Assembly (NCBI GenBank): GCA_031213475.1
Contig: JARUPZ010000024.1
Location: 5,189,437-5,253,436 of the forward strand
Reading direction: 5' to 3'
DNA: 64,000 nucleotides
From: Nereocystis luetkeana
Lineage: Eukaryota > Sar > Phaeophyceae > Laminariales > Laminariaceae
In this document: piece after piece, positions 15,831 through 57,772 of the stretch
Layout: every line of letters starts with the position of its first letter
Numbering within the stretch: position 1 is the first letter of the stretch
Position numbers and translations under genes: made by a program
The notes under the pieces: generated by a model
Databases searched by the model: none
What the model was told of the DNA's origin: nothing
Seen by the model: only the letters and a program-made list of their open reading frames with translations

Positions 15831-15935
15831 GACTATAGTTAATAGGACCAAATAGTGTTATTAATAGTAAAAATGGTTAATTATATAGGTTTTTATGTAT
15901 AACATAGGTCCTGTTACCTATGGTCGACCGTAATA
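15831..15935 (-). mobile_element. MITE-1 carrying a TA-TTAA-TA micro-insertion
   Basis: Ends TTACAGGGGAC and GTCGACCGTAA. The interior reads GTGTTATTAATAGTAAAAATGG where siblings read TTGTTAGTAAAAATGG. Confidence 0.85.
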
Positions 15936-16379
15936 GCTAACTGCTTGTATACATACATACCGACGTAGCTCGTGATCACGTTTGCTTTCCAGCTCACCGA
16001 ACGGCTGAGACACTTTTCGGAGAGTGAGCAAAGCGTAAGCTTCGCACCTGCCATATTTTTGATAGTACAGGATGCGCCCTTGCCCGGTACATTCTCAAAC
16101 CGACCCCTTGACGTGTCCACGTGTCCACGTGTCCCCTCATGGCCCTGGGTACACGCTCGTATATATATATATACGGCGGTTCCTACAACACGGCTCGCTA
16201 TCACGTTCACGTTACAGCAATTCAACTCTATCTGATACTGCTGTGCGTATATATTTTACCCACGACAATGATATCACGTACTATAATTACTTGGAAAGTC
16301 GTGTGTTTGATTTCGCTGCTGAGGTATGTATCTGGATATTTATACTCAAGTACCAGGTACGCCAGTTGTGATCTGTTAC

Positions 16380-16487
16380 TATTACGGGGGGCCATAGTAA
16401 ATAGGACCAAATGTTGTCGGTAGAAATAGGGAAAATATGAGTTTTTGTCTGTACGGTAGGTCCTATTTACTATGGTCCCCCGTAATA
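16380..16487 (-). mobile_element. MITE-1, intact
   Basis: Abuts the 1.1-kb repeat that starts at 16488. Confidence 0.88.
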
Positions 16488-17621
16488 AAACTACATACAT
16501 AGATCACAACCCCTGATCGTGCTCGGTTGGTGCATCCCTGGCCTCTCAGAGCTCTCTCAATTCCAAACCGCCTCCTTTCATTACTTGCCGGACCTTTCCA
16601 GCAGTTCTTTGTTTTCTCGATCATTTCTTCCTTTTTTCTTCTTTCGTTTCGTGTGCGTGCGTGTTCTCCGAGCACGGCATCGCGGGAGGACCCGGAACCG
16701 TCGCGGGTGCCAGCGGGTGCTGGCGGGTAGAGGGGGGGTTGCAAGGAGCGCGGTCGCCGCTTTCGTGCCTAGGCGTCGCGTGTGCCTCGAGACACGAGGG
16801 GTGAATAATCGGGCTTTGTCTGGCTTCGATTTATGATTGTTGATAGAGTATGTACGAGTTTATAAAGGTCGTTCGGGATGGCAAGATAATATTCAAGCGG
16901 TGCTTATTTTTGCGACCACGCTGAAGTTGAAAGAGGGAGGTGTGCAGTTTGAACACCAACGTTATCGAGCTGGGGAACGACGGCCACGGTGAGCACCGGG
17001 CTTCACGCGGGGCGGGCGACGGGGCTGATTGTGGCAGAGAGTGATATAAGCTTTGCCCGGACCGAATCGGTAGCGAGGTGGTCGCGAGAGGGGCGGGCGG
17101 CGTACGAGGCTGAGAGAGAAGCTCTTCTGTGCGATTTGTTTCTTTTCTTATTTTCGACCGGGTGTAAGGTGTTCCAATCAGGCAGAACATTATTACACGA
17201 GAGGGGACGGGGATTTTTTTCCTTTCCGAGTTTTCGGTTTCATTTTTATTGTTTTTGCTGCTGTACCGTGCTGTGCTTTTGCTTTCTTCGTACAAACAGT
17301 ACAGACATAGAGCATACCGAAAGAAGAAAATAAGTATAACAGACAGTAGTACCCTACCTGGGGTATGTACGTACGTACGACATCCGCGACGCGAAGCGTA
17401 TATGTGGCATCCAAGCTGACGTCGGAGCTGTTTTTTCCTGAAGCATGGCGGCGGGACTCTTGGCATTATCAAGTCGCCGGTCTGCAATTACGATCCTTGA
17501 AAACACTAGACTCAATCGTGGACCTCTGTTCGCTTCGCATAGTTTGATGTACTTTTTTCCTTCCTGAGCGAGCGTAGCGGGCGGCGTAGGCCGCCCGCGG
17601 AGCGAAGCGCCTTGTATATTA
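16488..17621 (+). repeat. 1.1-kb dispersed repeat, copy 1 (with hairpin end)
   Basis: Starts CTACATACATAGATCACAAC and ends in GGGCGGCGTAGGCCGCCC followed by GCGGAGCGAAGCGCC. The end is a strong hairpin inside a wider GAGCGAGCGTAGC/GCGAAGCGCC near-palindrome. Copies 2 and 3 at 53035 and 59279 are about 95 percent identical. No frame is conserved by an obvious coding pattern, and there are no long terminal inverted or direct repeats. It is probably a non-autonomous mobile element of unknown class. Confidence 0.7.
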
Positions 17622-17739
17622 TACGAAGCTGTATTTTATACTGTGGGTGGTCGCCTCGTTTACGTGGCGACGTAGCGACCCTCCGCATATACAGCAGTAG
17701 TTCGAAGTAAGTGTGATGACGAGTATATCTTGATATTAA

Positions 17740-17854
17740 TATTACGGGGGGACATATTAAATAGGGCCTACGGTACACACAAAAACCTACCGGTACATAT
17801 TTCGCTATTTTTACTAACAATGGTTGATCCTGTTTACTATGGTCCCCCGTAATG
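17740..17854 (+). mobile_element. MITE-1 with a TA-CCGG-TA micro-insertion
   Basis: CCTACCGGTACATATTTCGC replaces the usual CCTATATATTTCGC. The right-hand TA has become TG. Confidence 0.82.
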
Positions 17855-17907
17855 GCATGTATGTTTTTTTTTCGAGAAATATGAATAGATGCTATTATTA
17901 ATAATAG

Positions 17908-18014
17908 TATTACAGGGGACCATAGTTAATAGGACCTATGGTATACATAAACACCCAAATATTTAACCATTTTTACCAACAATATTTGGTTCTATTAACT
18001 ATGGTCCCTCGTAT
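17908..18014 (+). mobile_element. MITE-1
   Basis: Lies 54 bp from the previous copy; ends TTACAGGGGACC and GGTCCCTCGTA. Confidence 0.82.
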
Positions 18015-18379
18015 TCGTAGATGTAAATTGGTACACGAACTAGCGAACCTTCCGTTCCTTTTTCCCCGGCGAAACAACGGACGGGCAGACGTCCCCCACG
18101 GAAGGCCCGCCGGCCGAGACTGGTGCCATTGAGGTCACAGCGCTAAGCGAAAAGCATGCGCACGCCGGGCGTGCGTGAGGATGCAAACCGTACGTACTGC
18201 TTGCAGTACCTGATATGTGCCAGAACACTACCGTACGTACGTGCATATATTTATGTACCAGGTGCCATTCATTATATCATACCATACGTGAGTCGACACA
18301 CACTATTATATACCTGGTATATACTGAATACGTACGTAAAGCCCGTCGCAGCGCTTGTAGCTTGCGCTTTCGGTACTAC

Positions 18380-18596
18380 TATTACGAGGGGGCATACCGT
18401 AGCCGGAAGGGGGGAGAAGAGCCTGCTATGTGACCCCGGATCTGAGTTACGAGTTGGAAGGAGAGAGAGAAGAAGATGTGCGAAGATAATAAATGGGATA
18501 AGAAAAAAAAAATAGTTAATAGGACCGAATATTGTTCGTAAAAATGGCGAAATATAGAGTTTTTTTATGTATACCATAGGTCCTAGTAACTACTAT
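18380..18596 (-). mobile_element. MITE-1 interrupted by a short SINE-1
   Basis: The left end TATTACGAGGGGGCATA stops at 18396, SINE-1 sequence fills 18397-18510, and the MITE interior resumes at ATAGTTAATAGGACC. An ATA flanks the SINE on both sides and may be its target duplication. The right MITE end is lost. Confidence 0.75.
18397..18510 (+). mobile_element. SINE-1, short 3' form
   Basis: Contains only the last 100 bp of the body (from CCGTAGCCGGAAGG) and A10; the tRNA-like head is missing. The start point matches that of the short copy at 31040-31156. Confidence 0.75.
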
Positions 18597-19255: not shown

Positions 19256-19709
19256 TGTGCATGTTTATGGCTGACAGCGTCGAATGATTTGATTCATGAT
19301 TTGGCCGTTTCCAGAGAGGACAATGGGTACTGCTACGCGGTTATACGCACCGCACGCAGCACCGCGCGCAGCAGCCAGCCTCCATCAGGCCACGGTGTAA
19401 GGATGCGGGTTAACGCACAGGAGGGGCGCGGTCACCAAAACGATTTTTTGAGAAAAAAAAAAAAATGTCATGGTTTTGATGAACAACCCTCTGGCCTTAC
19501 AGGTACTACTTCGAAGTACATTTTTTTTTTTTTTTGCAAAAACAAGAGCGGAATTCCGACGATTTTGGGTTAAGGGGGACCGTCATCCAAAAGCAAAAAA
19601 AAAAACAAAATGTGCAACCTTAACTTAGCTCGCGTCTCTCGGCGTTTGCGCCCCCCTTCCCCCCCTCCGCCCCCCCCGCCCCCCGTGGCTACACCGGGAC
19701 TTAAATTAA

Positions 19710-20228: not shown

Positions 20229-20871
20229 GAAACGCAGCTCAGCTGTGGGATTCGCTGCACTAACTCCCATACAATGGAGTTAGATCGACGTCGGGAAAGC
20301 ACGTATGCGCATAATATAAGACAAGTGAGTCTAGACACCAAATTTGACGGGGGGGGGGGGGGGGGGGGGTTCCACACCGGCCGCCCCCTGGTGTGTATAC
20401 GCGGTATGGATGATGTGGTGTGTACGAGCGCACGATACGAGATCGCAAGTGTAAAAAAAAAAACAAAGTGGGTCCGCCTTACGTACGCACGGCACTGGTT
20501 GCTTGAATAGGTTTAGCCACCGCGTACGCCGCGTATTCCCAACAGGCGTAGCAGCGTTCGCCAACGGGCTTTCACGATATATGATATATACCAGGTATAC
20601 CAGTAGCTCAAAAACATCGGTTCACACGTTCACACACCACATTCATGGGAATTTCCTCCCACGAACCGAAATAACGAAATAACCTTGGAAAGCGCGCTCA
20701 GTCGAGGGAGCAACGTCGTTTCGGACGATTTATTTTCCCAACACGGAGGTACAGCAGTACTAGTACGGAGATTTTTGCCATTTTTTCCTCAACTCCCGCA
20801 CCTGCCACGGGATGTGGGGGCGTGCGCGGACCAGATTACAGTAGCGTGGACCGCGGATGTATTCCTCCCTT

Positions 20872-22520: not shown

Positions 22521-24740
22521 AACAGGGGGCGGCTTCTGGGCCCACTGGAGTCTGTCGACACGCTTATTCCGCATCAGTACGAGACAAAAACTCGATGCGG
22601 GTGCCCGGCCCATGTTTCTGCCGGGGATACAACACTCGAAAAAGAGCATCGCGCAGCACGTCACCCAGCTCACACGGTGGAGCACAGCCGAAGTCGGTAT
22701 CCTCGTTGGCACTCGATTGATTACACCTGATCCTGCGAAAGTTACCCCTTTTAGGGCTGCAGTCCCATTCTGGTGGCGATCCACTCAAAGTCTGAGTAGG
22801 TTTTGTCCCCAAAACGGGACTGCAGTCCTACAAAAAAAAGGGTTGAGTCGTGAGTTAATGGCAAGTTTGGCTTCTTTTTTACCGCACTTGACGGGGAAAG
22901 GCGGATGCCTCGAATTTCCTGAACAAAAATCCGCGCTGAGCACCAACGCACGACGCGTTTACCACATCAGCCACCACCTTTTTAGGCTATGACCTCGGCA
23001 TGGTCCCTGATGCCAGGGGGATTGACATGCTCCGACTACTCAAATCACTCTGCCACCTTGCTCCACGTTAAATGGCGCACCCGGCACTACTGCTAGCGAC
23101 AAACGAGATGCGTGTGAGGAAATGTTCTGACTTCCCCAAACCAGTGTCCCACCTGTCTCACTCCAACATGGTTAGGGTTAGGGTTTTGTGGACCGGATAG
23201 CGGATGTCGAAAGTTTCGCGCTGCCTTTACAGTCGTCTCAGCTAGCGCGAACCCGAACCCGCGATCCGGCACAGACAGTCCAACGACGTGCCGAATAAGC
23301 GTGCATCGGTTAACGTGGCCCGTTGGACACGCCAGGCATCCACGTGCTGCTCCAGCGAGAGCTTAATCCCCAATGAACATCCGCTCTGCTTGGTTCAACC
23401 CCCGCAACGCTACCACCCCGGTTGGTATCTTCTCCCTAGCGCGGAACAGATCCTGGAACACGAGCCAATCGTTCTCGCCCGACACCTCCATCGCGCTCCA
23501 AGAATCCCAGCGCGAGCCCCCTCAGCCCTCGTCCATCCTTCGAGGTCGCCGCGATCGCTCCGCCCGAGGTTTGCCCCACCGATCGGTGGAGGCCGCGCCC
23601 TTATCCAGAGCCAGGGGCGCCGCTTCTGCTCCCACCGCCCTGCGCTCCGTCCCGAGACCGCCGACCGCTCCCCCGCCAGCCAGCATAGCCAGTGCGGTTG
23701 ACGCTCCGCCCCCCCCCCCCCGCGAACACTAGCACCCGCGCGGCCATCTGCACCCTAGCCACGCGCCCCTTCCCCCCCCGCGCTGCGTCACTGGTGTCAG
23801 CTGCTTGATGGATCTCGTGGGGAATCCTTGCAGCTTTTTGCCGTAACTACGAGTCGCGGAACGCGTGACAGATGTTCGATCTCCTGCGCGCTTGGGTTTC
23901 GGTGTCGCCGCCACCCCTTCTCCCTACAGTTTCCCCGCGCTGCCTGCTACCGCTCCACCGCTGCTGCTGTCGGCCCGTAGTGGCTTGAATTCGCGTGCCT
24001 CCCCCAGCGGACAAGACCATGGAGCTCGGGGAATGCTGGCGAGGGGGGCATCTCGAAAACCGTTTCAGCCGTCGGTGGCATGGCTGGCGAGTGATAGCCC
24101 TGCGCACGGCTCTGGCGAGCTCACCAAATCCACAAGCTGAGATCTTGATTTATCGTATCTCCTACCTGGTAGGATTTTAGCCGATTCCGCGCTACTCGAT
24201 CGATGTGTCCGAGCGCGTGTGCCCCGAGGGCAATGCCCGCCGTGACGAAGCGCGCGTCCAGCTTGTGTACCCGCGCAAGGCTAAAGGCGCCCACCGCCAC
24301 CGTATCGTTCAGGCCCAAGCTTAGGACAGACCCCATACTCCGCAGCCCGCCGCAGTAGGTCAGAACGGTCCACTACCGAAAGTGTCGTGGTCGCCGCCAG
24401 CTCCCGTGCGCGGTCGAAAAATACAACGCACCGAAACCGCCCATCGACCGACCGTAACTGCTGTGCTACCTCAGGTGCCACCCCGAGCATGTCTCCCAGC
24501 AGCGCTTACAGGTCCGAAACTGATCCCCCCCCGTGGCTGCTGGTATCCGACCGCGAGGAATCCAGTGCTCCGGGGGGGGGGCAGCTTCTCCCACATTCGC
24601 GACGTCCTTGCCGAGTTCGGGCCTGCGTTGCGACTAAAATATGAATGATGCCCAAGACAAAAGATGAAAGGCCTCACGACCACTGTTAATAGAGAGCACG
24701 CCGTTCTCTCGCCGGCCAAGTGAGGAACAAGTAACATCCC
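22521..24740 (-). other. GC-rich segment, possible upstream part of the retroelement
   Basis: Base composition matches the RT block rather than the surrounding intron. Minus-strand frames at 24281-24490 and 24121-24336 give protein-like sequence (SVDGRFRCVVFFDRARELA; LNDTVAVGAFSLARVHKLD) but are frameshifted against each other. This could be a decayed gag-like region; I do not recognise a domain. A short GGTTAGGGTTAGGGTT stretch lies at 23171. Confidence 0.35.
22742..22846. mobile_element. MITE-2, diverged
   Basis: TTACCCCTTTTAGGGCTGCAG to GCAGTCCTAC, then AAAAAAAAGGGTTGA. The right arm carries an A-run insertion. Confidence 0.7.
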
Positions 24741-25085: not shown

Positions 25086-25269
25086 TGCTGCTCGGTAGTA
25101 TTAGTAGTGATGATGATGTTATTTATACACACTTCGAGAATATGTTTTTTTTTTAAACAGTAGTAGCAGGTATGGAATACACGCAGGAAAAATTCCCCAC
25201 TCGTGGCCGCTACTTGCAACTTCGGGATTATTTATTTATATACCTGGTATTTATTACTTCCCAGATATC

Positions 25270-25384
25270 TATTACGGAGGACCATAGTTACTAGGACCAA
25301 ATATTGTAGGTAAAAATAGTTAAATATATACTGGTAGGTTTTTATGCATACCATAGGTCCTATTAACTATGGTCCCCCGTAATA
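25270..25384 (-). mobile_element. MITE-1 with a TA-CTGG-TA micro-insertion
   Basis: AAATATATACTGGTAGGTTT in place of AAATATATAGGTTT. Confidence 0.85.
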
Positions 25385-25686: not shown

Positions 25687-25783
25687 TTAACCCTTTTAGA
25701 ACCGCAGTCCCGTTCTGGGGACAAACCAGTCAAATTTCAAGTAGTTTTGTCCCCAAACGGGACTGCGGTTCTAAAGGGGTTAA
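25687..25783. mobile_element. MITE-2, intact
   Basis: Almost identical to the copy at 5844, including the shared TTCTGGGGACAAACC variant, so the two are recent relatives. Confidence 0.88.
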
Positions 25784-27194
25784 GCGCGATGGAAGTATGA
25801 CACATGGCTTGCAAAGATGAGTTTCGACCAAATTCTGGATCTCGCAGCTGTTGTTTTGAAAATTGTATCCGTATACACCTGGTGGTATACCTCGTACCAA
25901 CCGGGTACGTATGCTTTTAAAGTCATACCGGCTGTCAGGGTAAACATGTAATTCACAGGGTGAGTAAGACCTATGCCAATGGGACAGCGAAGTTTCAATA
26001 AAAAGTTTGAATTTCAAAAGATACCCGCCAAAATTTTTCAGAACACGCTTTTTATGGGCCACGTAAAAAAAAAAAAAAAAATCCTAACTTTTGGAAAAGC
26101 CCGAAAAAAATAATCTGGGGCCGATGTTGGGCCAACATCGGCTTGAGAAAAACTCAGGCCGACCTTTGATTCGAAGCGGCGAGATTCCGAGTCCTCGACA
26201 GACATCGATCAACAAAAGCAACGATTGCGTCATGAATTCTGAACGGAGTCGCTCGTTAGGGGCTCCGACCCACCCTAGGGTCACCGTCTTCACACCATGG
26301 CCGGTGTCATGTAGCGGGAGCTGACCAGGCGTGTGATAAAAAAACATTCGGCCGCTGGTTTGCACAAAACAGAACATAAAACTTCTCCGTCCGTCTCGAA
26401 TGGTAAAAAATAGACTTTTTTTCAGGTTTGGGAGGATACCGTTCGACGCCGCCGGCAAGCTCTCGCCCCCTAGACCATGCATCCACCCAGTATCTTCGAG
26501 GCCGTCATCTATATTCGTTGGCCTTGCTAGATACCGAGCGGGTTGGCCGTGGGCTGAGTCTATGTCGAGATCGAGCGTCGATTGTCGCACGAGCTGGTTT
26601 CAATCACCGTGTTGACAATTTGCAACCAGAAAAAACAAATTGCGCTGCCTGCAGCCGTGGGGGGGGGGAAATAAAAAATCAAACATTTTTCTCCTTTTTC
26701 CCCACAGCGGCGATACGAGAAAAATTTCGGCTTTTTTTCTAAAGCAATATATTTGAAAAAAAAAACCTTTGAACTTCGCGTTTCCATTGGCATAGGTCTA
26801 AGGGCGGATAAGTTTAATATTTTCGTTAGTATTTTACGTATTTTCACATATACCAGGCACCAAGGTGTCGTGTGGCGTGTCGTAGTTATGTACCTGGTAC
26901 CAGCATTTTTTCGGTCGCCATTTTCCCGCCTCCGCGTCGTCATACCAAGGTCGCCGGTGCCGGCAACATATCCTGGTGTTGGTAGGGTCTCCTCCCTTCT
27001 CCCATCACGATCCGTCGCAATCCTCCGAATCAACGCTTTTATTCGTACCCGGTACATATGTTTTTTGTCATCATGTATGGCCTTATGGTGTCGTATCGGC
27101 ATGGACACAGGTTGTGCTGGAGATGTCGACGGGTGGAAGGAACGGTTTTGATCCGAAGGAACACACACACGTGCCTGGTATAATACCGCAGTGG

Positions 27195-27371: not shown

Positions 27372-27480
27372 AATTACGGGGGACCGTACTTCGAAGTATT
27401 AATAGGACCTACGGTACACACAAAAAACTATCTACTTACTACGAATATTTGGTCCTATTTACTATGGTTCCCCCGTAATA
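27372..27480 (+). mobile_element. MITE-1 with a TA-CTTCGAAG-TA micro-insertion
   Basis: GACCGTACTTCGAAGTATTAATAGG where siblings have GACCATAGTTAATAGG. Confidence 0.85.
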
Positions 27481-28148
27481 CTGCTGTATTTGCTCAGGCT
27501 CCCGTAGCAGAAACGTGGGAGGTGTGACTTTTAACTTTTCCATACGAAGCGGGTTACGAATGGCGGTGATGGTGATGGTGGTGACGGCGGTGGCGGTGTT
27601 GGTTCGGCGAAAATCGATCCAGACTTGGGTGCCGAGGCCACGCTCGCGGTGGCGCGGCGGGCTGTTGGCTTTGCCTCCTTTGGCACAAACAAGACCAACC
27701 AATGCTGTCTACGAAAACCAGTTTCCGAAATCAGAAGCCGTACCCGTAATATGTATGTAGATGGTTTTTCTGGTTGCTCACATTTTTCTTGAGCCTCAAA
27801 AACTAGAAAAACAATCGCCCGAAATCACGGCTGTTGATAAAAACTTTCCCGTAATAGATGAACTCACCAACGCTCATCAGTACACCCAGTTCCGTCCTCA
27901 ATCTTCATCCTATGGGAGAGGTACGTACAATTTATGGGGCCGCAGACTGGCTACTTTTGTGAGATAGAGAAACCAAAGTAGTCGCAAATGGAGCAAGGTG
28001 TATGTATGCCTGGTACACATACAAGTATACGCACGAATGCAAATGATATGGAAAGGCCAACGTACCCGGTACGAGAACGCAACAAATAGTGAGCCAACCC
28101 GAGAAAATGGTGTGCTATTAATATTAATAGTCGTTTTTTGTCTTCACA

Positions 28149-28245: not shown

Positions 28246-28832
28246 AGATCGTTTTTTTTACCCAGCCTTAACAGTACACCCAGTGTCCGTCGTGATTTCA
28301 TTATCCTAGAGAGGTACTATTTCTGTGGTCACACGCTGTGAGACAGAGTAAGACCAACAAATAAAAAAGTGACCGCAAATGCATGCATGGGTAAAACAAA
28401 CAAGTGAGATGATGCCAAGCCGCGCCGGGTACGGCATGACAACGCGCAAACAGAGACCAGGAAATCAGAAACCATTAAGGCAATAAAACAAAATGAACGA
28501 TGCTGAATCGAAACAGCAGAGCATACGAACGCCTCATCAAGGAGATCAGGATGACTGCTACGTACTCGAGAAGGAGAGATAGCTGGCGCACGGACGAAGC
28601 ACCACCACCGCGGCGGGAAGGGGAGAGGAAACGAAGCGAGAAGACGAGGCCAAAAACAAGAAGAGAGAAAAAGAGAGAAAAGTTGAAGTCGTACTCCAGG
28701 CGGTGATATTAATAGTAACATGGGGTTCCTGTCTCTGGGAAAACCGGTTCGGGAAACCTCGCCACACCCTTTGCCGTCTCGTTCCCATTCCCGTCTATAG
28801 CGATGCCAGGTGTCAGAAGTGCCGCTGTCGCG

Positions 28833-29038: not shown

Positions 29039-29848
29039 TAGTAGGAAACGCACACATATATTTGGCGGAGGAGGCGGATGTTCCTTCGTCGCTTCGGCGA
29101 TGGTTGAAGCCATGGCGCCACGTGCCAGCATATATATATATATATATATACCTGGTATACTATATTATATATACACCTGTAAACAGTAATATCCGCGCGT
29201 TATGATTATGGTTGGGACTCTGCCATTGTACCGGAATAAACAATACCGAAAATTGTCCGGAAGGGTTGAGGGCTTCTCTTCCTTGGCCGTCCTTGGTCAC
29301 TGCTGTTTTCCTTTGTGTGGTGTGTGGTGGCGTTGTCCTGTACGACTTTTGAGCTTTTTTTTCTTTTCTTTTTTCGGAGAGTCGTAGCCCGTGTAGTGTG
29401 TGTGTATGGAGGTGGTGTGGCGCGATGGTGCGGTGGTTTCTCTGAACACCATAGGCGCGATGTAGACATCCCATGAAAAAAAGGGTGAGAGCGGAGTCAC
29501 AAACGCCACCTTTTGTCGGAATAGAAAACAAACCATTGATACGAAGCGGGTTGGGGTTTTTTTTTTGCCAGTTTTTTTTTTCGTTCTCTCGTTATTTTCG
29601 GTTTCGTTTTGCTTGATTTTAGTATACCCCCCCCATCCTCCTCCTCCTCCTCCTCCTCCTCCTCCTCCTCCTTCTCCTTCTCCTCCCTGTCCGGGACTAA
29701 AAAAACAAAGTGGGGGCGTCGTCTGTTTGTTTGTTTGTTGCGTACCCTTGGGTACGGGGTTTTACGTTTTTTGGAGAGTTTTTACGTACCAGGTACTAAA
29801 TGTCATGTGGCGGATGCTCCTCCTTCCGCATTGCTATTGGGCTATGGA

Positions 29849-29963
29849 ATTTCGGGGGACAACAGTAAATAGGACCAGATATTGCTAGAAAAAATAGTTA
29901 AACATATACCTGGTAGGATTTTGTGTGTACCGTATGTCCTATTAACTAGGGTCCCCCGTAATA
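29849..29963 (-). mobile_element. MITE-1 with a TA-CCTGG-TA micro-insertion
   Basis: ACATATACCTGGTAGGATTT where siblings have ACATATAGGTTTT. Left end mutated to TTCGGGGGACA. Confidence 0.82.
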
Positions 29964-30114
29964 GCATCTGGTACTGGTACCTGGTGTATGTTAGTGCCTG
30001 TGAAATCGCCTGGTGCTCTTTGTTGCCGGTTGAGTATGTTACTGCCGGTTGCCCGATATATATATATATATATACCAGGTATATATTATTATATATATAT
30101 ATATTTTCAACATC

Positions 30115-31156: not shown

Positions 31157-31587
31157 ACGTGTTGCGTAACAATGTACAGAGTAGTAATGTTGATATTAAT
31201 AGTATCTCTGTGGCGCGGTTTTGTGACCGCAGAACTTGTATCTCTCTATGTAGGATTGAAGAATCGGCACGGACACTAGTTGTGCTGGATGTCGACGGGT
31301 AGAAATGACGGTTTCATGTGAAGAACACTCCCCGCCCCCCCCCCCCCCTGGAAGTATCACACCAAGCTTGGAGCTATGAGTTTTGAGGAAAGTGTCCATC
31401 TTACTCACCAGGAGCGCCTCTCGGACCTGTCTTTTTTTCGACACTTTCCATTAAAAAGGTCGAAATGAAAACAAATCGGAGTGTTGTGATCACGGGACGA
31501 TGTAAGACAAAAAGTTTTGTTTTACTTTTTCCAAGTTCGGGTTGGTTGTTCATTTCAGCCCCCCCTCCCCCTATTTTTTATAGGTTG

Positions 31588-32091: not shown

Positions 32092-32210
32092 TATTACGGG
32101 GGACCATAGTTAATAGGACCAAATATTGTTAGTAAAAATGGTTAAATATATAGGTTTTCATGTATACCATAGGTCATACTCCGGAGTATTAACTATGGTC
32201 CGCCGTAATA
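32092..32210 (-). mobile_element. MITE-1 with a TA-CTCCGGAG-TA micro-insertion
   Basis: GGTCATACTCCGGAGTATTAAC where siblings have GGTCCTATTAAC. It sits between a family-A unit and its poly-C. Confidence 0.85.
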
Positions 32211-33536: not shown

Positions 33537-33715
33537 GTGTGTACTGCTGGGGGGTTTTTTAATGTGTTTTATATTATGAAGGGGGGGGGGGTGGTTTTAC
33601 CAACCCCTACGTAGGTTTCCCAAACATCTTGCGGCGTTTTTCGCTCTTCCGCCGATTTTACTGCTGTCGTCGTGTTCCGATGTTTGGTTGGTTCTATTGT
33701 TTGCCTCTTTTTTTC

Positions 33716-41197: not shown

Positions 41198-41640
41198 GCG
41201 TCATCACAAGCGCCAGCAAAATATTACCAGGTGAGCGCTAGCGTAAGTTTCAGTATAAGCATGAGCGCTATTAATAGCGTAAGCATAAGCGTTAGCGTAA
41301 AGGGTCGGTATAAGCACGTGAGTTAGCATAAGCGTCAGCACATGCGCTATAATAGCACGAGCATCAGCATGAGTCGTGAGCATAAGCGTTAGCACAAAGC
41401 ATCAGCGTTACTTGGCATTAGCATAAGCGCCAGCCTTTTAGTTACAAAGCGTTAGCGTCAGCAAAAGCGTCGGCGTACCAACAATGAACGCTAGCATAAT
41501 AAGCAGCAGCGTGAGCGTTACTTAGCGTCAGCACAAGCGTCAGCCTTCTAGTTACAGAGCGAGGACATAAGCGTCAGCATAACAAGGCTCAGCATAAGCG
41601 AGACCATAAGCGTCAGCGCAAGCATTGTTAGCGCTCAAAC
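41198..41640. repeat. degenerate AGCGTNAGCATA minisatellite
   Basis: The hexamers AGCGTT, AGCGTC, AGCATA and AGCACA alternate over 440 bp, with a longer period from TTAGTTACAAAGCGTTAGCG blocks. It begins at the right end of a MITE-2. Confidence 0.85.
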
Positions 41641-49210: not shown

Positions 49211-49499
49211 ATATAATTCGATCGATCACAGTAAAATATCTGCCAGGCATCTGATAGGCTACAGGGGCTGTACCTCGGGGTGCTTGCATCTGAAAAGTCA
49301 GCCGTAGCGCGAGGCTAACAGCTCCGCGAGCGGAGGGACCCTTAGGGGCTCAGAGCTACAGTAAGGTCAAGGGCTAACGGATATACCTGGTACAGCATAG
49401 GGCTAACGGTTACATAGCATAGGGTCAGGGTAACCTCGACGCGGGTCGACGAGGAAAGACGTGGCTCCAAGTATTATCTCGCGAAAAAAAAAAAAAACG

Positions 49500-49766: not shown

Positions 49767-49892
49767 TATTACGGGGGGGGGCACAGTTAATAAGACCAGT
49801 GGTATACACAAAAAAGCCTACCAGGTATATGTGTAACCATTTTTTTTCCAACAATATTTGGTACTATTTGGCTATTATGGTCCCCCGTGATA
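49767..49892 (+). mobile_element. MITE-1 with a TA-CCAGG-TA micro-insertion
   Basis: GCCTACCAGGTATATGTGTAACC where siblings have ACCTATATGTTTAACC; GTGATA right end. Confidence 0.82.
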
Positions 49893-50283
49893 GAGCAGCA
49901 ATGTTGAGGGTCACGGTCGAAAATGGTCGCAGATCGAAAGACTGGGGCCAGGGCTAACGCTCACGGGCTAAGTAAGGTCCAAGAGCAAGTGGTGAAAGCA
50001 TTAGGGTCTGGGGAAAGGAGTATGGCTACGTGAACGCCACGGTCAACCGTAAGGTTCACGGATAAGGGTCAAGATCGCAGCGAAGGGTCCCTGATCACGA
50101 GCAATGGGTGGGGTCAACGTTAAGGACCCAAGGTCAGGGTTAGGATTAACGTCGACTAATAGGGCTAACGACCGGGGCTATGAGGGCTATAACAGGGGTC
50201 CGAGCTGCTGGAATCAATGACGCAGTAACTGGGAGCTGCATACGTAGACAACGGCGTCGGCGCCCGAACGCGGTTTGTTGCAC

Positions 50284-50433
50284 GCCTTATCAAGTCGAAC
50301 ACCTTCTGGTCTTCGAGTATGGGATCCCAGTGACCATCCTTATGAATCTCCACCTCTTCCGCGTCGTTTGTTAGCCCCTGCTCTTCCAAGGTACGGACCA
50401 CCTCGTCCAAGTACGTATCGACGACGAGATCCC
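50284..50433 (-). CDS. SUMO E3 ligase (PIAS/SIZ-like), post-RING exon
   Basis: Acceptor TACGTTGTATTGTAG; the first two bases complete the Gly codon left open by the SP-RING exon (phase 1). Encodes DLVVDTYLDEVVRTLEEQG, then EEVEIHKDGHWDPILEDQK. This is the segment that follows the RING in PIAS/SIZ ligases (D-Y---I, then V-I--DGSW-P). The 3' boundary is the least certain point: a GTGCAA donor below 50284 gives phase 1 and joins the next exon cleanly. If it is skipped, the frame runs on through CVIDSSSSDP to TAG near 50165, which could be a short isoform. Confidence 0.75.
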
Positions 50434-50490
50434 CTACAATACAACGTAAAAAACAAAACAAGGAGGACGAGGAGGAGGACGAGGACGAGT

Positions 50491-50715
50491 GGGGGGGGGG
50501 GGGGGTACTCATTTGTTGCTTGACTTAATCATTTGACCATTGACCACGCATCCCTTTCGAGACGGGGCACCGTTCCTACTCGTAATAGAGACACCTCCAA
50601 ACAATTGGGCGCTCATTACGTCGTTTCCATATACTACATACCAGTAGAAACTTTTTGCTAATCTCATCTCCTTCCTGTTTGGCCGCCTGTGGCCACCATC
50701 TGTCTCCTAGGATAG
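50491..50715 (-). repeat. family B
   Basis: G14 then GTACTCATTTGTTGCTTGAC; includes a TA-CCAG-TA micro-insertion at 50639 absent from the copies at 33.8 and 55.2 kb. Confidence 0.7.
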
Positions 50716-50778
50716 CGATCGTTTTCTCGCTGCTATCTAGTGTGTCAAACTCCTCCATGTCACATTCGTCTATTCGAG

Positions 50779-50872
50779 GGGGGGGGGGGGGGGGGGGGCG
50801 GGGGGCGCACTCATTTGCGGCTTGCGCTAGTCAATTGACCATTGACCACGCATCCCCATTCGAGCCGGAGCA
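50779..50872 (-). repeat. family B, 3' end only
   Basis: G18CGGGGGGCGCACTCATTTG, then GTCAATTGACCATTGACC. The CACTC variant replaces TACTC. Confidence 0.62.
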
Positions 50873-51571
50873 TGAGGTGGGGGCATTGGAGGAGGAGGAA
50901 AAGGAGGACACACGTAAGGAGAACACAACGAAAAAGAGAGGGACTAGAGGGGAACGGGGGGGACGTGCCGAAAATGTCGGCCGCGCTCAAAACGTCTACG
51001 AACTTCGGAGCACACAGCAGCACGCCGGAACCAAACGCCAGGCCTGACGTAATGCCACCGGCATCAACACCAACACCAACCAACATCCGGGCCACAATAA
51101 ACCCCAATGGCAGCGCCGAACACGCGTGACAACGCCGACGACCTTGCCAACATCCTACACCAACATCGATACCAACCCCAGCAACGCCAAAATAAACCAG
51201 GAGCGACCTAACCAACCCTAAACACTACCCCCCACCACCACCACCAATACTAACACAACCGCCACCACCAACCGCAAACCCCAATACCAACACCAGTGAC
51301 ACCAACAACACACCCATGATAAGTACCAACGATACAAACAACACAACAAAATTAAACAAACAAAAAAGCGGGATCGATCAATCGCCAACGATGGGACGGG
51401 AACAAAATACCCCCCTTCCTCCCCATCATACGACTACGGCCATGCACGACATGAGTACCCCCCCCCCCCCCCCCCCCCCCTCCCCCGCCCCGCCCCCCCG
51501 GGCAACATCACCCCCACACCCCCCTCTCCCCTCCACGACGACCCCCCCCCCAAACACTACCAACACCTCAC

Positions 51572-51710
51572 CTGGCTTGAGAGGCATGTTGCACACGCCG
51601 CACTTCCACGCAGCCCCCGCGCAGTCCTTGTTAAAATTAAGGAACGTCTTCAGGTCGAAGCACTGGAGATGCTTGCAAAATCGCCCTCTACCCGGGCACG
51701 TTATCGGAAC
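51572..51710 (-). CDS. SUMO E3 ligase (PIAS/SIZ-like), SP-RING exon
   Basis: Enters at GGAAACCCAG in phase 0, leaves at CCAG before GTGAGG in phase 1. Encodes VPITCPGRGRFCKHLQCFDL, a 15-residue stretch KTFLNFNKDCAGAAW, and KCGVCNMPLKP. The zinc ligands of the SP-RING are the Cys and His of CKH and the two Cys of KCGVC. This domain recruits the SUMO-charged E2 (Ubc9) and drives SUMO transfer in the nucleus. The usual Pro of C-P-x-C is Gly here. It is the strongest single identification in the window. Confidence 0.92.
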
Positions 51711-51929
51711 CTGGGTTTCCACCATGTTGGCGTGGAGGCGGGAGCGAAGGGGAAGGGAAGAGGAGGGCGGGGGGGGGGAAGAGGGGGGGGGGGGGGGGTT
51801 AGCCAACAAATACGCAAATCGCGGCGATATATTTCACGCTTTCACGACTAAGCTGGCCGGACAAAGCTGCAACTACTCACAACACGCCGGGGAGAGAAGG
51901 CGGGGCGGGGGGGGGGGGGGGGGGGGTAC

Positions 51930-52115
51930 TCGATAGGAGAGATGTACTCGATCTCATGCATGGCCGTAGTCGTATGACCAAGGCGGGGGGGGAGGGGTTA
52001 CGCATCGCGCTATGCAGCATCGCCGAACAGTAGCCGTTTGGCCCCACGAGGCCCTCCCATCCCTGTGCACAACGCCGGGACGGAACACGGTCGGGTATCC
52101 ACCGACCAGGCAGAC
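51930..52115 (-). repeat. family A, partial, with an internal insertion
   Basis: G18 then GTACTCGATAGGAGAGATG, GATCTCATGCATGGCCGTAG, a 40-bp foreign stretch, and CCACCGACCAGGCAGACATGG. Confidence 0.65.
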
Positions 52116-52253
52116 ATGGATTTTTGCCTGGCCATGCAGCAATGGGAGAGGAGACGGCTCCGACCGAGACAGCACATACAAACAGTACGAGGACATGACC
52201 GGAACCACAACAAGGAGCACAAGCAAACGAGGCAACAGACACACGCCACTCAC

Positions 52254-52418
52254 GAGACCGAGCGGACACCGCAGGGAGAGCCTCGTGGCCGTCGCCATCA
52301 GCTCGTCGTCGCTGTCCTCGTTGGCATCGTCCTCCTCGTCCTCGTCCTCGCTGCTACCGCCGACCACGTCGAGGTCGAGGTACCCCTTGAAGGATCGTTT
52401 CACTCGCCGTAGGGCCTC
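52254..52418 (-). CDS. SUMO E3 ligase (PIAS/SIZ-like), PINIT/SP-RING link exon
   Basis: 55 codons, phase 0 on both sides: acceptor GTGGAGCAG, donor CTC before GTGAGT. Starts EALRRVKRSFKGYLDLD, the end of the PINIT region. A strongly acidic linker of mostly Ser, Glu and Asp follows, then MATATRLSLRCPLGL, the first strand of the SP-RING (the C-P-L/I-S motif). It reads straight into VPITCPGRGRF of the next exon, which confirms the splice. An acidic linker at this place is also seen in plant SIZ1. Confidence 0.85.
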
Positions 52419-53034
52419 CTGCTCCACGTCGTGTCATGCCAGACACACACACACAAAACAAACAAACAAAAAAGCAAAGGAACCGGGAAACGAAAACAGT
52501 AGTTCATACGGCTATGAAGAGAGCGATTTTTTTTTTTTCTTCTGCATTCCATTTCGATTTTCCTTCTTTTTTTTTTTTTGCTTGTTCAGGCGAACTCATT
52601 TTATTTTATTTTTTTCCGACGTAGTTTCTATTTCAAGGGGGGGTACACAAACACAAACACGAACGAAACAAAAAAACGACCAAAAATACATCAAGCAATG
52701 CTATGCTACATACCTGGTACCAGGCGCATCATCTCATATATACCAGATCGCGCCGCATCGCTTCACAAGGAATTCCATGTGGCATCACACCATATGAAAA
52801 AACAATGAAAATAATAATAATTAACAGCTGTGACCAAGGACATTTCGTCGAAACTCATCTTTGCAACAACCTGTGTGTGATAAATCGATCGCGCGTACTA
52901 CGTGTACGGGTTTTGTATGGCCTACTGCCGGGTACACAAATCCATATACGAATGAGGAAGACAAAATCAGAAGCTGCAGACTCCAAGGAGTGGGTGAGTA
53001 TATATTGGAGAAAGGAAAAAAATAATTATATATA

Positions 53035-54108
53035 GAACTACATACTTAGATCACAACCCCTGAGCGTGCTCGGTTGGTGCATCCCTGGCCTCTCAGAGCT
53101 CCCACTTCCAAACCGCCTCCTTTCATTACTTGCCGGACCTTTCCAGCAGTTCTTTGTTTCCTCGGTCCTTTCTTCCTTTTTTCTTCTTTCGTTTCGTGTG
53201 CGTGCGTGTTCTCCGAGCACGGCATCGCGGGAGGACCCGGCACCGTCGCGAGTGTCAGCGGGTGCTGGCGGGTAGAGGGGGGGTTGCGAGGAGCGCGGTC
53301 GCCGCTTCCGTGCCTAGGCGTCGCGTGTGCCTCGAGACACGAGGGATGCATGAACGGGCTTTGTCTGGCTTCGATTTATGATTGTTGATAGAGTATGTAC
53401 GAGTTATGAAGGTCGTTCGGGAGGGCAAGATACTATTCAAGCGGTGCTTATTTTTGCGACCACGCTAAAGTTGAAAGAGGGAGGTGTGCAGTTTGAGCAC
53501 CAACGTTATCGAGCTGGCGAACGACGGCCACGGTGAGCACCGGGCTTCACGCAAGGCGGGCGACGGGGCTGATTGTGGCAGGGAGTGACAAAAGCTTTAC
53601 CCGGATCGAATCGGTAGCGAGGTGGTGGCGAGAGGGGCGGGCGGCGTACGAGGCTGAGAGAGGAGCTCTTCTGTGCGATTTTTTTTCTTCTTTTTGACCG
53701 GGTGTAAGGTGTTTCAATCAGGCAGAACATTATTACACGAGAGGGGACAGGGATTTTTTTTCCTTTCCGAGTTTTCGGTTTCATTTTCATTGTTTTTGCT
53801 GCTGTGCCGTGCTGTGCTTTCGCTTTCTTCGTACATACGAGTACAGACATAAGAGCATATCGAAAGAAGAAAATAAGTACAGACAGTAGTATCCTTTCCT
53901 ACCTGGGGTATGTACGTACGTACGACATCCGCGACGCGAAGCGTATGTGGCATCCGAGCTGGCGTCGGAGCTGTTTTTTCCTGAAGCATGCCGGCGGGAC
54001 TCTTGGCATTATCAAGTCGCCGGTTTGCAATTACGAACTAAACGTAATCGAGGACCTCCGTCACTTCGGTTAATTTGGTGTACTTTTTTTCTTCCTGAGC
54101 GAAGCTAT
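53035..54108 (+). repeat. 1.1-kb dispersed repeat, copy 2
   Basis: Starts CTACATACTTAGATCACAAC like copy 1; ends at TTCCTGAGCGAAGC without the GC hairpin. Confidence 0.72.
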
Positions 54109-54367
54109 ATATCCAGAGGTTCCACGTAGCTTGTCACGCCCGATAACCCCCCCCTCCCCTTCCATTTACATGGCATACGCCACACGACATGGTCGGCAAC
54201 AACGCGAGGCATCACCTCGATGGCTCGAAAAAAGTCGAAAAAAGAAAAGAAAAGAAAAAGGACTCACCTTCTTGGTAAGGTGGGAGCGTTGCTTGATATC
54301 CCGAAGCACTTCTTCCACACCAACCAGCCTCACCGTCTGGATAAAATGCGCAATACCAAAAAAAAAA

Positions 54368-54395
54368 GGGGGGGGGGGGGGGGGGGGGGGGGGGG
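54368..54395. repeat. poly-G run, 28 G
   Basis: Preceded by an A run; no attached repeat family. Confidence 0.9.
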
Positions 54396-54473
54396 CGGAA
54401 CATTTACACGTGTATATACGTCGAGGAGAAGAAAAAACAAACCGCGCCGGAAACGGGCAAGAATGGATTTAAT

Positions 54474-54570
54474 TAACCCTTTGAGGACCGCAGGCCCGTT
54501 TTGGGGACAAACTACTTGGAATTTGACTGGTTTGTCCCCAAAAGCGGGACTGCGGTTCTAAAAGGGTTAC
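54474..54570. mobile_element. MITE-2
   Basis: TTAACCC left, GGGTTA right; arms GAGGACCGCAGGCCCG and GCGGTTCTAAAA. Confidence 0.83.
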
Positions 54571-54825
54571 AACGAGATTTAATGAAAAATATCGGTTTGA
54601 AGTTTTCGAGAAAAAAAAAAAAAAAAAAAAACGTTGAGTAAACGGATGCGAAAACCAACACAAAGGTTTTATTTAATACCTGCAACAGTAGATAATGATA
54701 ATCGGAAGAACGGAAAGCTCACATCGACGAATGTTGTGTGAATTTTTGAAAAAAATAGAAGAAATCTCTGATATTTCCACAAATGGAAAAATTCGATGCC
54801 TCCCGATATCCAACACTCTACTGCT

Positions 54826-54899
54826 GTTACGGGGGGACATACTAATAGCGATCAGGACCCATCCCGTAAACACAAACCTATATGTTCCAGCATTTTTAT
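54826..54899 (+). mobile_element. MITE-1, left half only
   Basis: GTTACGGGGGGACATACTAATAG to CAAACCTATATG; cut off where a MITE-2 begins. Confidence 0.7.
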
Positions 54900-54990
54900 C
54901 GAACCCATTTAGAACCGCAGTCCCATTAGGGGGACAAACCAGTTCAATTCCAAGTAGTTTGTCCCCACACCGGGACTGCAGTCTTAAGGA
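54900..54990. mobile_element. MITE-2
   Basis: CCCATTTAGAACCGCAG to GACTGCAGTCTTAAGG; directly abuts a truncated MITE-1. Confidence 0.75.
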
Positions 54991-55149
54991 TAAAGCGTAC
55001 TTGGTCCCGATAACAAGGTGCTATGTTCTTCACCCATTACAGCTACAAATATTTGTATGCATGTATTTTTGTGTACTGTGGAATTCCTCAAGACCAACTA
55101 TTAATACTCGTATTGTGGGGAAAAAAAATGAAGGGCTCAAAGGTCTGGG

Positions 55150-55375
55150 TCCCCCCCCCCCAAATCCTAGGAGATAGATGGTGGCCACAGGCGGCCAAAC
55201 AGGAAGGGGATAAGATTAGCTAAAAGTTTCTATGTAATATATGGAAACAACGTTATGAGCGCCCAATTGTTGGAGGTGTCTCTATTAGGAGTAGGAACGG
55301 TACTCCGTCTCGAAAGGGATGCGTAGTCAATGGTCAAATGACTAAGGCAAGCAACAAATAGGTACGCCCCCCCCG
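55150..55375 (+). repeat. family B, plus-strand copy
   Basis: From CCTAGGAGATAGATGGTGGCC to AAGCAACAAATAGGTACG and a C-rich run; the clearest view of family B in its sense direction. Confidence 0.72.
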
Positions 55376-56257
55376 CCCCGCCCCCCGAACCCGCGGTTTA
55401 CCCCGCGCGGTTGTCAGAAACACCGGTACTACTCGTAGACTCTTCAGGATGATCTCCTTGAGTTTCCGAGAGTCTTTTCTTAAACAGGGTTCCGGTTCGT
55501 CCATATTGCCAGTTCTGAGGACATCATGATTTTTACCAAAAATCTCCAAAGATCCATTATTTCTGGTCCCAGTTCTGACAAGCAAAATCATATTTCTTAC
55601 CCCCCCCCCCAGAGAAAACTGATTGGCCGCTCCAAACATCAAAATAGGACTCGCGGAGAAACGGAAACCTTTTCCAGAAAGCTCTCGGAAAGCTCTCCAG
55701 GGAGCATTTCTGAGGGCTCTACTCGGTGTTTGGACTGTTGTCCCGCCGAGTAAAACGCGCACACTCGGCCTCAAAATCCAGTTCCTGGAGCCCAGACATA
55801 GTTCCCCATAATACACGGTATTTACACCAGGCACGAGAAGTTATAAGAATCATTTTTTTTCATCAATAGTGGCATACCATACCAGTACGTTGTAGTGCGA
55901 GTTTGCTGTACTGCTGCAGATACCCCGGCGACCCGCGCACGCGTCGCCTTCCACAACCCTACGAGCATAGAAATGTTCTCCAGCCCCCTTTCGTGAAGAG
56001 GAAAAAGCAGAACACAGCCCAGAAAACGAGAGGAAAAGGACGGTATCCGATCTTTCGATAGAGTCGCAACTTCCGATTTGATGCCGAACCCTTAGATTAG
56101 AGCGGTATATACATATCCAACAATTACGGCAGTATAAAAAGTAGTGGTGGAGGCAGTAGTCCATATACTTCGAAGTATATATATACGTATATATAATATA
56201 TATATATATATATACAGTAGAGTGGATACCCCGGCGTCCCCTACATGTTAATGCGCA

Positions 56258-56598
56258 TTTTTTTTTTTTTTCTCTCGTCCCATTCATGATCTTCGCGCAT
56301 CTTCTTCTCTCTCTCCTTCCCACTCGTAACTCAGATCCGGGGTCACATAGCAGGCTCTTCTCCCCCCTTCCCGCTACGGTACGTGCCTTCATTTTTATCG
56401 CGAGAAAATTTCAGCCTTTTCTTCCCTCGTCGACTCGCATCGAACTGTGCCTATTCACGCTGCAAGGCGCTCTTAACAATTGAATCCTTTCTTATTTTAT
56501 TTTTGCAAATAAAGTCAAAGTCCGACCCACCTGGGGCTCGAACCCAGGACTCAAACAAGTAGAATTCGAGGTTAACCACTTGAACCACCGGGGCGACC
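56258..56598 (-). mobile_element. SINE-1, full length
   Basis: Poly-A is T14 on the plus strand; tRNA-like head ends at GGGGCGACC. B box GGGTTCGAGCCC intact. Confidence 0.88.
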
Positions 56599-56669
56599 GG
56601 CTTATATATACAGTACATAAACGCCTGGGGCAGATCACTGATTCCCACGAAATGATACAGGTATTTTCA

Positions 56670-57060
56670 TTGCAGATGATCTAAATGATGTGTATGATCT
56701 GTGTGATCTGTGTGATCTAGCTCATGCTTGCCGGGTGAGGGCCGTATAGCCTGCACGGTTTACTACGCACGTAGCTCATGTTCCCTGGGCGATATCTGCA
56801 CCACTCAGGACCTGCTCAGCACATGTTTCCAGGGTGATACAGATCTTTCATTGCAGACGATCTGAATGATCTAAATGATCTGTATAATCTGAATGATATC
56901 TATATGATCTACCTCGTGTTGCCGGGTGGGGGCCGTATAGCCTGCATGGTCTAGAGCATCTTTCCTGGGTGATATCTGTACTTGATATAATACAGATCCT
57001 GCCTAACATCTACATGCCATGGCGGCAGTTTACAACACAGATGATCTACTGTACAATAGA
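56670..57060. repeat. TGATCT-rich array within a larger duplication
   Basis: Runs of GATGATCTGAATGATCTAAATG. The unit CCGGGTG-GGGCCGTATAGCC with TTCATTGCAGA-GATCT occurs twice, about 190 bp apart. Confidence 0.72.
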
Positions 57061-57097
57061 TCATGAGCTGTATGGTGTGCGATATACATATACAGCA

Positions 57098-57300
57098 GTG
57101 CCGGCCCCTCTCTAGTGCCTGTTTAACATGCGCCAGCCAACAACACCGGCACTATATACAGCGGCAACCAACCGGCACTAATTACTCCGCACACTGCCAC
57201 AATGGTTGATAATCCCATTTGCGCCACGCGATTCCGCAGGCACGATATGTAGCGGCCGACCGGCACCATAATACTCAACCGGCACTATAGGGGGGCCGCT
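57098..57300 (+). repeat. 180-bp GCCGGCACTA repeat, copy 3
   Basis: CAACACCGGCACTATATAC and GCAACCAACCGGCACTAATT as at 27.2 kb, ending CAACCGGCACTATAGG. Confidence 0.72.
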
Positions 57301-57493
57301 ACTGCTGACTGCTGTAGCCTACTTACTTGCGGAGATGATCTCCACACGCCTCCATCCCTTGTAAACCGAGAGAAGACAAGAGAGCGAGAACCCAATAACT
57401 AGTCGGGCCACTGTCTCCAGTATTGTCAGGTCTTCGTCCCGCCCCAACACACGAAAAAATAAATAATGGGTCGATCATTTGGGTCATCAACAC

Positions 57494-57608
57494 TATCATG
57501 GGGGGCCATGGTAAATAGGACCGAATATTGTTATTAATAGTGAAACTAGGTAAATACAAAGGTTTTCGTGTATACCATAGGTCTTACTAACTATGGTCCC
57601 CCGTAATA
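57494..57608 (-). mobile_element. MITE-1, array unit 1, with a TA-TTAA-TA micro-insertion
   Basis: TTGTTATTAATAGTGAAAC instead of TTGTTAGTAAAAA; left end TCATGGGGGGCC. Confidence 0.86.
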
Positions 57609-57649
57609 CGACCATAGGTAGGATGGAGCTTCGTACGGTATACCTACAG

Positions 57650-57772
57650 TATTACGGGGGACCATACCAGGTAGTAAATAGGACCAAATATTGTTCGTAA
57701 AAAAAGGTAAATACAAAGGTTTTTGTGTATACCATACCAGGTATGTCTTACTATCTATGGTCCCCCGTAATA
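57650..57772 (-). mobile_element. MITE-1, array unit 2, with two TA-CCAGG-TA micro-insertions
   Basis: Insertions at 57665-57673 and 57735-57743. Otherwise it matches unit 3 almost base for base. Confidence 0.9.

Follow-up and report, generated by a model that had tools for sequence, protein, structure and literature searches.

Why do repeat copies in a brown-algal genome differ from their siblings by tiny insertions in which a TA stands on either side of a short palindrome-like core, and what left them there? We addressed this question in 64,000 bases of Nereocystis luetkeana (GenBank assembly GCA_031213475.1, contig JARUPZ010000024.1, positions 5,189,437 to 5,253,436; hereafter the window), where a first-pass annotation had cited twelve such units and interpreted them as transposon excision scars, ascribing the TTAA class to MITE-1, a repeat with a 107-bp consensus and TTACGGGGGAC ends at TA, present in the window as 37 copies or fragments. 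Two Tc1/mariner features, terminal inverted repeats and a TA target duplication, are present in MITE-1. We confirm the TA-palindrome micro-insertions, and we consider it likely that they are excision footprints of TA-specific cut-and-paste transposons. The cited units and their context are listed here by window position, with a strand for the MITE-1 copies and none assigned to the units.

15859 to 15866, TA-TTAA-TA in MITE-1 copy 15823-15934, cited
57532 to 57539, TA-TTAA-TA in MITE-1 copy 57496-57607, at the same MITE-1 position as 15859, cited
37426 to 37531, plus strand, complete nested MITE-1 at the TA where 15859 and 57532 hold TTAA
37356 to 37425, plus strand, left part of the host MITE-1, whose right part begins at 37532
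4982 to 5087, plus strand, representative MITE-1 with TA-TTACGGGGGAC ends
57665 to 57673, TA-CCAGG-TA in MITE-1 copy 57651-57771, missing from copy 57816, cited
57735 to 57743, second TA-CCAGG-TA in MITE-1 copy 57651-57771, cited
49819 to 49827, TA-CCAGG-TA in MITE-1 copy 49768, cited
29907 to 29915, TA-CCTGG-TA in MITE-1 copy 29850, cited
25329 to 25336, TA-CTGG-TA in MITE-1 copy 25272, cited
17788 to 17795, TA-CCGG-TA in MITE-1 copy 17741, cited
50639 to 50646, TA-CCAG-TA in repeat family F6, intronic, cited
27387 to 27398, TA-CTTCGAAG-TA in MITE-1 copy 27373, cited
35475 to 35486, TA-CTTCGAAG-TA in a poly-C repeat family, cited
32177 to 32188, TA-CTCCGGAG-TA in MITE-1 copy 32094, cited
19507 to 19518, TA-CTTCGAAG-TA without a sibling
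56166 to 56177, TA-CTTCGAAG-TA without a sibling

All twelve cited units proved to be exact TA-core-TA strings at their coordinates. When the core and one TA were deleted and the resulting string was sought more than 50 bases away (the empty-sibling, or collapse, test), 11 of the 12 had a distant empty sibling in the window, and for these the claim of an insertion relative to sibling copies stands. The twelfth, at 27387, has no empty sibling in the window by the collapse tests, and shows as an insertion only if gaps are allowed in aligning MITE-1 copy 27373, a further 8-nt gap being required elsewhere. Under a strict version of the test, limited to palindromic cores of 4-12 nt and with low-complexity-flank sites dropped, a distant empty sibling was found at 8 of 251 TA-flanked sites compared to 2 of 723 sites at the other fifteen dinucleotides, and control collapses of 7 random bp near scars gave a sibling in 3 of 347 cases. 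Among insertions of 6-7 nt in self-alignments of the window, 10 of 30 are TA-flanked, and across the 37 MITE-1 copies and fragments ten units of the cited form are spread over nine copies. Inspection of flanks in the repeat alignments showed that the inserted cores do not copy adjacent sequence.

The units are also far too numerous for chance. TACCWGGTA (W, A or T) occurs 39 times in the window against 0.42 expected, with flanks so unrelated that no pair exceeds 63% identity; 35 of these lie beyond the four cited, which bears out the suggestion of at least 25 further occurrences and settles that the motif is enriched rather than at its expected frequency. When dispersed 9-mers with independent contexts were ranked outside masked sequence (22,345 of the 64,000 bases masked), TACCAGGTA came top (26 vs 0.51 expected). 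The window further holds 19 copies of TATTAATA (1.07 expected) and four exact copies of TACTTCGAAGTA, or five when up to one mismatch is allowed (0.15 expected). Genome-wide counts of two motifs gave 182,395 TACCWGGTA compared to 1,744 for the reversed pattern, and 2,133 TACTTCGAAGTA compared to 7, in the whole assembly of 465,085,209 bases. In a replication set of 200 kb (20 stretches, L018-L037, from 11 contigs outside the window contig), we found 88 CCWGG units (2.1 expected), 48 TTAA units (1.2 expected), four CTTCGAAG units (0.01 expected) and no CTCCGGAG units, together with CGTACG (6 vs 0.37 expected) and GATCATC (10 vs 0.03 expected) between TAs. Since the number of units is so large, an assembly artefact is an unlikely origin. 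Mild enrichment is also seen for TA-CWG-TA (81 vs 38.7 expected in the 200 kb), TA-TWA-TA (55 vs 18.6) and, within the window itself, TA-CG-TA, which are perhaps further, shorter scars; AT-only TA-palindromes are likewise raised in the 200 kb.

For the TTAA class, an element, a scar and an empty target can be seen at one and the same MITE-1 TA, where a full MITE-1 sits in one copy, TATTAATA in two and nothing but the TA in others; the nested element at 37426-37531 occupies the TA homologous to the scars at 15859 and 57532. Reading away from the TA, a preference for G, T, A is common to TTAA sites and MITE-1 ends, and their flank profiles are not distinguishable in the window (p=0.064; 2,000 permutations with a floor of p ~0.0005, each site's two flanks treated as separate). 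Among the TTAA sites more than 12 bases from MITE-1 in the window, the MITE-1 profile is a better fit than the CCWGG profile for 11 of 12. In the fresh 200 kb, where TTAA sites were unfiltered for MITE-1 proximity, the MITE-1 profile was favoured by 41 of 48 TTAA sites compared to 922 of 2,000 random TAs, and by 27 of 88 CCWGG sites. Together, these findings are strong evidence that the TTAA units are footprints of MITE-1 or close kin, and the prediction that MITE-1 excision leaves TA-TTAA-TA is upheld by both the triad and the matching target preference. Scans of IMG/VR gave no match to MITE-1, while the double scar matched nine contigs there. Three MITE-1 copies in the window have a TA in common with a TTAA unit:

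17734 to 17741, TTAA unit, TA in common with a MITE-1 left end
35095 to 35102, TTAA unit, TA in common with a MITE-1 left end
15280 to 15287, TTAA unit, TA in common with a MITE-1 right end

Two further observations concern these small repeats. Four MITE-1 copies are clustered at 57496-58071 and the right flank is common to three of them, which suggests that the cluster arose by tandem duplication. A second repeat, M2, comprises hairpins of ~93 bp with AACCC...GGGTT ends and TTAA-like flanks in 23 copies or fragments, some with 10-bp tandem duplications; these are probably piggyBac-type miniature inverted-repeat transposable elements (MITEs). Examples of M2, to which 20 further copies are to be added, are:

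5846 to 5937, M2
25689 to 25780, M2
54476 to 54568, M2

The CCWGG units have a target preference of their own. In the window they favour R-TA-Y and often sit inside TATA, and their flank profile differs from both the TTAA and the MITE-1 profile (p ~0.0005, the permutation floor), which points to another family. Since most of them sit in unique sequence, an empty sibling was found in the window for 5 of 39 sites, one of them weak. Where siblings exist, MITE-1 copy 57651 carries two CCAGG units that are missing from its 98.1%-identical neighbour 57816, and one MITE-1 TA (CC-TA-TATATTT) holds CCGG, CCAG, CCAGG and CCAGG in four copies, the two CCAGG copies (84% identical) being ones that might share an event. 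Double CCWGG units, in which neighbouring scars share a TA, number four in the window compared to a mean of 0.42 (maximum 4, 300 runs) under random placement and 0.57 (maximum 5) under placement with the target preference, a moderate excess, and the 200 kb contained seven more. From these features, CCWGG is probably the footprint of another TA family; we file it as footprint-like and not as a proven member (no source element with CC...GG ends was found in the 264 kb formed by the window and the 200 kb). The window's units with a TA in common are:

178 to 193, double scar TACCTGGTACCTGGTA, sites 178 and 185
863 to 878, double scar TACCAGGTACCAGGTA, sites 863 and 870
13276 to 13291, double scar TACCAGGTACCTGGTA, sites 13276 and 13283
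15629 to 15644, double scar TACCTGGTACCTGGTA, sites 15629 and 15636
1026 to 1041, TACCAGGTA and TACCCGGTA with a common TA
12590 to 12604, TATTAATACCTGGTA, TTAA and CCTGG units with a TA in common
28116 to 28129, TATTAATATTAATA, two TTAA units with a TA in common
39493 to 39506, TACTGGTATTAATA, CTGG and TTAA units with a TA in common

The longer CTTCGAAG core is probably an excision footprint as well. CTCCGGAG is a candidate footprint; this core is a single case in the window, none occurs in the 200 kb, and only its four-base tip matches a Stowaway end. It fits the Stowaway consensus end CTCCCTCCRT, which would give CTCC+GGAG (PMC1925063), and no element with Stowaway-like ends CTCCCTCC was found in the 264 kb.

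We propose that a transposon would insert at a TA and duplicate it, that a few bases from either of its inverted terminal repeats would stay at the site on excision, and that filling in and joining of the broken ends would yield TA-core-TA, the core being the left tip followed by the right tip in mirror image. The doubled TA, the mirrored tips, the class-specific preferences and the insertions beside older scars argue for such a cut-and-paste anatomy, in which transposases, staggered cuts and end joining are the presumed agents. In the TTAA class, two bases would be retained per end, TT from the left and AA from the right. CCWGG would come from a second family with ends CC(A/T)...(A/T)GG, its odd length and central W resulting from an A:A or T:T mispair; either 5-nt overhangs CCAGG might pair at all but the central position, or CCA overhangs of 3 nt might overlap by one base, with CCATGG as the blunt product. 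CTTCGAAG and CTCCGGAG would retain four bases from each end of further families, so that CTTC-ended elements, like CC-ended ones, are predicted to exist. Scars would accumulate as every jump adds one while the number of elements stays low.

Several results weigh against this interpretation or narrow it. In self-alignments, TA-flanked insertions make up 11 of 104 distinct insertions of 3-16 nt, the other 93 repeat indels having no TA flanks, and in 3 of those 11 TA-flanked cases the core is not a palindrome and is not CCAG/CTGG either. Once the palindrome requirement is dropped, the collapse test no longer singles out TA (35 of 2,633 sites, compared for example to 82 of 4,042 for AG). Within MITE-1, the inserts at 28924 and 34878 have cores that are not palindromic, that at 54827 is not TA-flanked, and several differences fall at edges or in poly-C; in the 23 M2 copies, inserts are mostly of other forms. 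Since only a minority of repeat indels are TA-flanked and TA is unremarkable once the palindrome is disregarded, the scars are a distinct minority among indels. A single event could lie behind both TTAA copies of the triad, although this is unlikely because the copies carrying 15859 and 57532 are only 77% identical to each other. In the fresh 200 kb, only 17 of 23 MITE-1 ends favour the MITE-1 profile, and the CCWGG preference past the first flanking base is weaker. One-mismatch variants of TACCWGGTA number 20 at the TA positions compared to 5.8 expected and 5 at C/G compared to 5.7; those falling on TA are only partly explained by the excess of T>C and A>G in MITE-1 (125 of 267 substitutions in 26 copies). 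The PF13358 profile gave no match in the assembly (30 candidates scored), a six-frame search that says little for an intron-bearing genome.

The search for sources adds to these points. Terminal-repeat families and recurrent TA boundaries were sought in the window, the 200 kb and some 3-kb loci, and the window was screened for elements whose inverted repeats have TA and CC ends. None of the recurrent-boundary families recovered begins with CC, CTTC or CTCC; this method requires four exact 11-mers and did recover MITE-1 and M2. Overall, no element with CC...GG, CTTC or CTCC ends was found in the 264 kb, which contain 127 CCWGG units, by searches that would overlook families lacking clear terminal repeats and present in three copies or fewer; a screen for large insertions within repeats was too noisy for use. 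The predicted CC/GG and CTTC/GAAG families are indirectly supported by TA-directed insertions and by the separate preference of CCWGG, while the elements themselves did not appear in the 264 kb. One candidate, L019:9156-9489, was rejected as a CCTGG-tipped hairpin element, as the inverted repeat extends past it; L019:9100-9550 is a long near-perfect inverted repeat and possibly a fold-back assembly artefact. The excision-scar interpretation of the first-pass annotation is accordingly well supported for TTAA and MITE-1 and indirectly for CCWGG and CTTCGAAG, whose source elements were not found in the 264 kb.

How, then, do other explanations fare? The failure to see a source for CCWGG or CTTCGAAG in the 264 kb would be natural if sequence-specific repair or slippage made the micro-insertions without any transposon, and the tandem duplications in M2 show that 10-bp events of that general kind are present. 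However, such a process leaves the TA flanks and the class-specific target preferences unaccounted for, the cores are not copied from neighbouring sequence, and TTAA has its MITE-1 triad, so that we regard it as very unlikely. No more credible, in our judgment, is a functional palindrome under selection, with CCWGG dispersed over the genome as a site of protein binding or of chromatin function. It would suit the very high number and uniformity of the units and the variants that spare the core, but not the appearance of units as insertions relative to sibling repeats, the doubles that share TAs, the parallel TTAA and CTTCGAAG classes or the target-like preference in the flanks.

That the TTAA units stem from the TTAA-target MITE M2 and not from MITE-1 is barely credible. 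TTAA-like sequence does flank M2 copies, but their right flanks do not run on into a TA, no element bounded on both sides by TTAA was found at TATTAATA sites, and the TTAA flanks fit MITE-1; M2 was rejected as the source on these grounds. Precise excision by piggyBac adds no bases. If a class of TA-bounded elements were removed in a programmed or systematic way during the life cycle, leaving its joints in the sequenced stage, this would explain why scars vastly exceed candidate elements (127 against none in the 264 kb) and why the joints are uniform (39 CCWGG in the window beside 3 CCSGG, 11 CCAG or CTGG, 1 CCGG and 0 CCATGG, the last occurring twice between TAs in the 200 kb). A long-lived, low-copy jumping family would likewise yield many scars per element, however, and programmed removal of this kind is not known to us from brown algae; we consider it highly improbable. 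A bolder version of our preferred reading, excision by TA-specific cut-and-paste transposons, is that one family, now rare or absent, left ~180,000 near-identical 5-nt scars (~1 per 2.5 kb) through unusually uniform joint sealing, in its boldest form by systematic, even programmed, removal of TA-bounded elements; this version is unlikely.

The remaining TTAA and CCWGG units of the window are dispersed as follows:

17896 to 17903, TTAA unit at most 12 bases from a MITE-1 copy
27397 to 27404, TATTAATA beside the CTTCGAAG unit, may be MITE-1's own sequence
10303 to 10310, TTAA unit outside MITE-1
28707 to 28714, TTAA unit outside MITE-1
31194 to 31201, TTAA unit outside MITE-1
38650 to 38657, TTAA unit outside MITE-1
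39418 to 39425, TTAA unit outside MITE-1
41269 to 41276, TTAA unit outside MITE-1
55099 to 55106, TTAA unit outside MITE-1
58387 to 58394, TTAA unit outside MITE-1
59268 to 59276, TACCAGGTA at an F5 5' edge; F5 copy 16485 has MITE-1 at the matching edge
2271 to 2279, TACCAGGTA, unrelated flanks
5406 to 5414, TACCAGGTA, insertion in one gapped alignment
6088 to 6096, TACCTGGTA, unrelated flanks
8825 to 8833, TACCAGGTA, unrelated flanks
9468 to 9476, TACCTGGTA, unrelated flanks
10900 to 10908, TACCTGGTA in TATA sequence, weak empty sibling
13138 to 13146, TACCAGGTA, unrelated flanks
13679 to 13687, TACCTGGTA, unrelated flanks
15757 to 15765, TACCTGGTA, unrelated flanks
16351 to 16359, TACCAGGTA, unrelated flanks
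18311 to 18319, TACCTGGTA in TATA sequence
20589 to 20605, TACCAGGTA followed directly by TACCAGTA
24163 to 24171, TACCTGGTA, unrelated flanks
25241 to 25249, TACCTGGTA, unrelated flanks
26891 to 26899, TACCTGGTA, unrelated flanks
29149 to 29157, TACCTGGTA in a TATA run
29787 to 29795, TACCAGGTA, unrelated flanks
30073 to 30081, TACCAGGTA in a TATA run
39851 to 39870, two TACCAGGTA units (39851, 39862) with a gap of 2 bases
40900 to 40908, TACCTGGTA adjoining a one-mismatch unit at 40893
49384 to 49392, TACCTGGTA, unrelated flanks
52711 to 52719, TACCTGGTA, intronic
62925 to 62933, TACCAGGTA, unrelated flanks

Larger repeats and one gene surround these units. F5 is a 1.1-kb repeat in four copies, with a MITE-1 exactly at the 5' edge of one and a TACCAGGTA exactly at that of another, and F6 and related repeats contain long poly-C runs (20 nhmmer matches, with part-copies besides those listed):

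16485 to 17617, F5
53032 to 54103, F5
59276 to 60409, F5
62242 to 63179, F5
33715 to 33933, F6-type repeat
50491 to 50711, F6-type repeat
55166 to 55380, F6-type repeat

On the minus strand, 50264-59197 holds five exon blocks of a PIAS-type SP-RING gene (zf-MIZ), whose introns of several kb contain MITE-1 copies and scars. Its 165-residue query is 77-79% identical over 92-94% to two Ectocarpus proteins and one Scytosiphon protein, which places the host among the brown algae, and among 30 open reading frames (ORFs) of the window zf-MIZ was the sole Pfam match above cut-off, one other ORF having three below it. A first protein search of the window gave no match, nor did tRNA and Rfam scans.

Footprints are usually observed per locus or per assay. 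Scars such as those described here could make past cut-and-paste activity countable for each family in turn, including families whose element has disappeared, and their class-specific target preferences might identify a transposase that has since been lost. With the predicted ends CC(A/T)... and CTTC..., the brown-algal genomes already sequenced can be searched in a simple way, and the uniform joints make break repair in this lineage a matter for testing. Among the open-access texts reached with the terms used, we found none that reports such scars accumulating across a genome. Ectocarpus, also a brown alga, carries almost 12,000 Mariner-Tc1 copies, mostly MITEs; the main text of that paper does not contain the word footprint (PMC12477816).

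As in Sleeping Beauty and other Tc1/mariner elements, TA is duplicated about a few terminal bases, the Sleeping Beauty footprint being described as 3-nt 3' overhangs sealed by end joining (PMC7827188); Passer footprints are given as 0-4 bp (PMC9976928). Unlike in Sleeping Beauty, the cores here are 4, 5 or 8 nt long, the source of CCWGG is inferred, and ~182,000 units lie in one genome. Stowaway MITEs of Triticeae likewise leave short pieces of their ends between a pair of TAs, with one reinsertion at the TA of an old footprint, much like our insertions beside older scars, but their footprints are asymmetric and few, whereas ours are mirrored and dominated by one core (PMC1925063). When rice excisions were compared genome-wide, 8 of 94 were reported as perfect and most had deletions or filler; the joints in Nereocystis are uniform by comparison, a biased view since only recognisable scars count (PMC4423477). 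Altogether, footprints of this kind are known, and what is new here is their number, their uniformity and their excess over any visible source.

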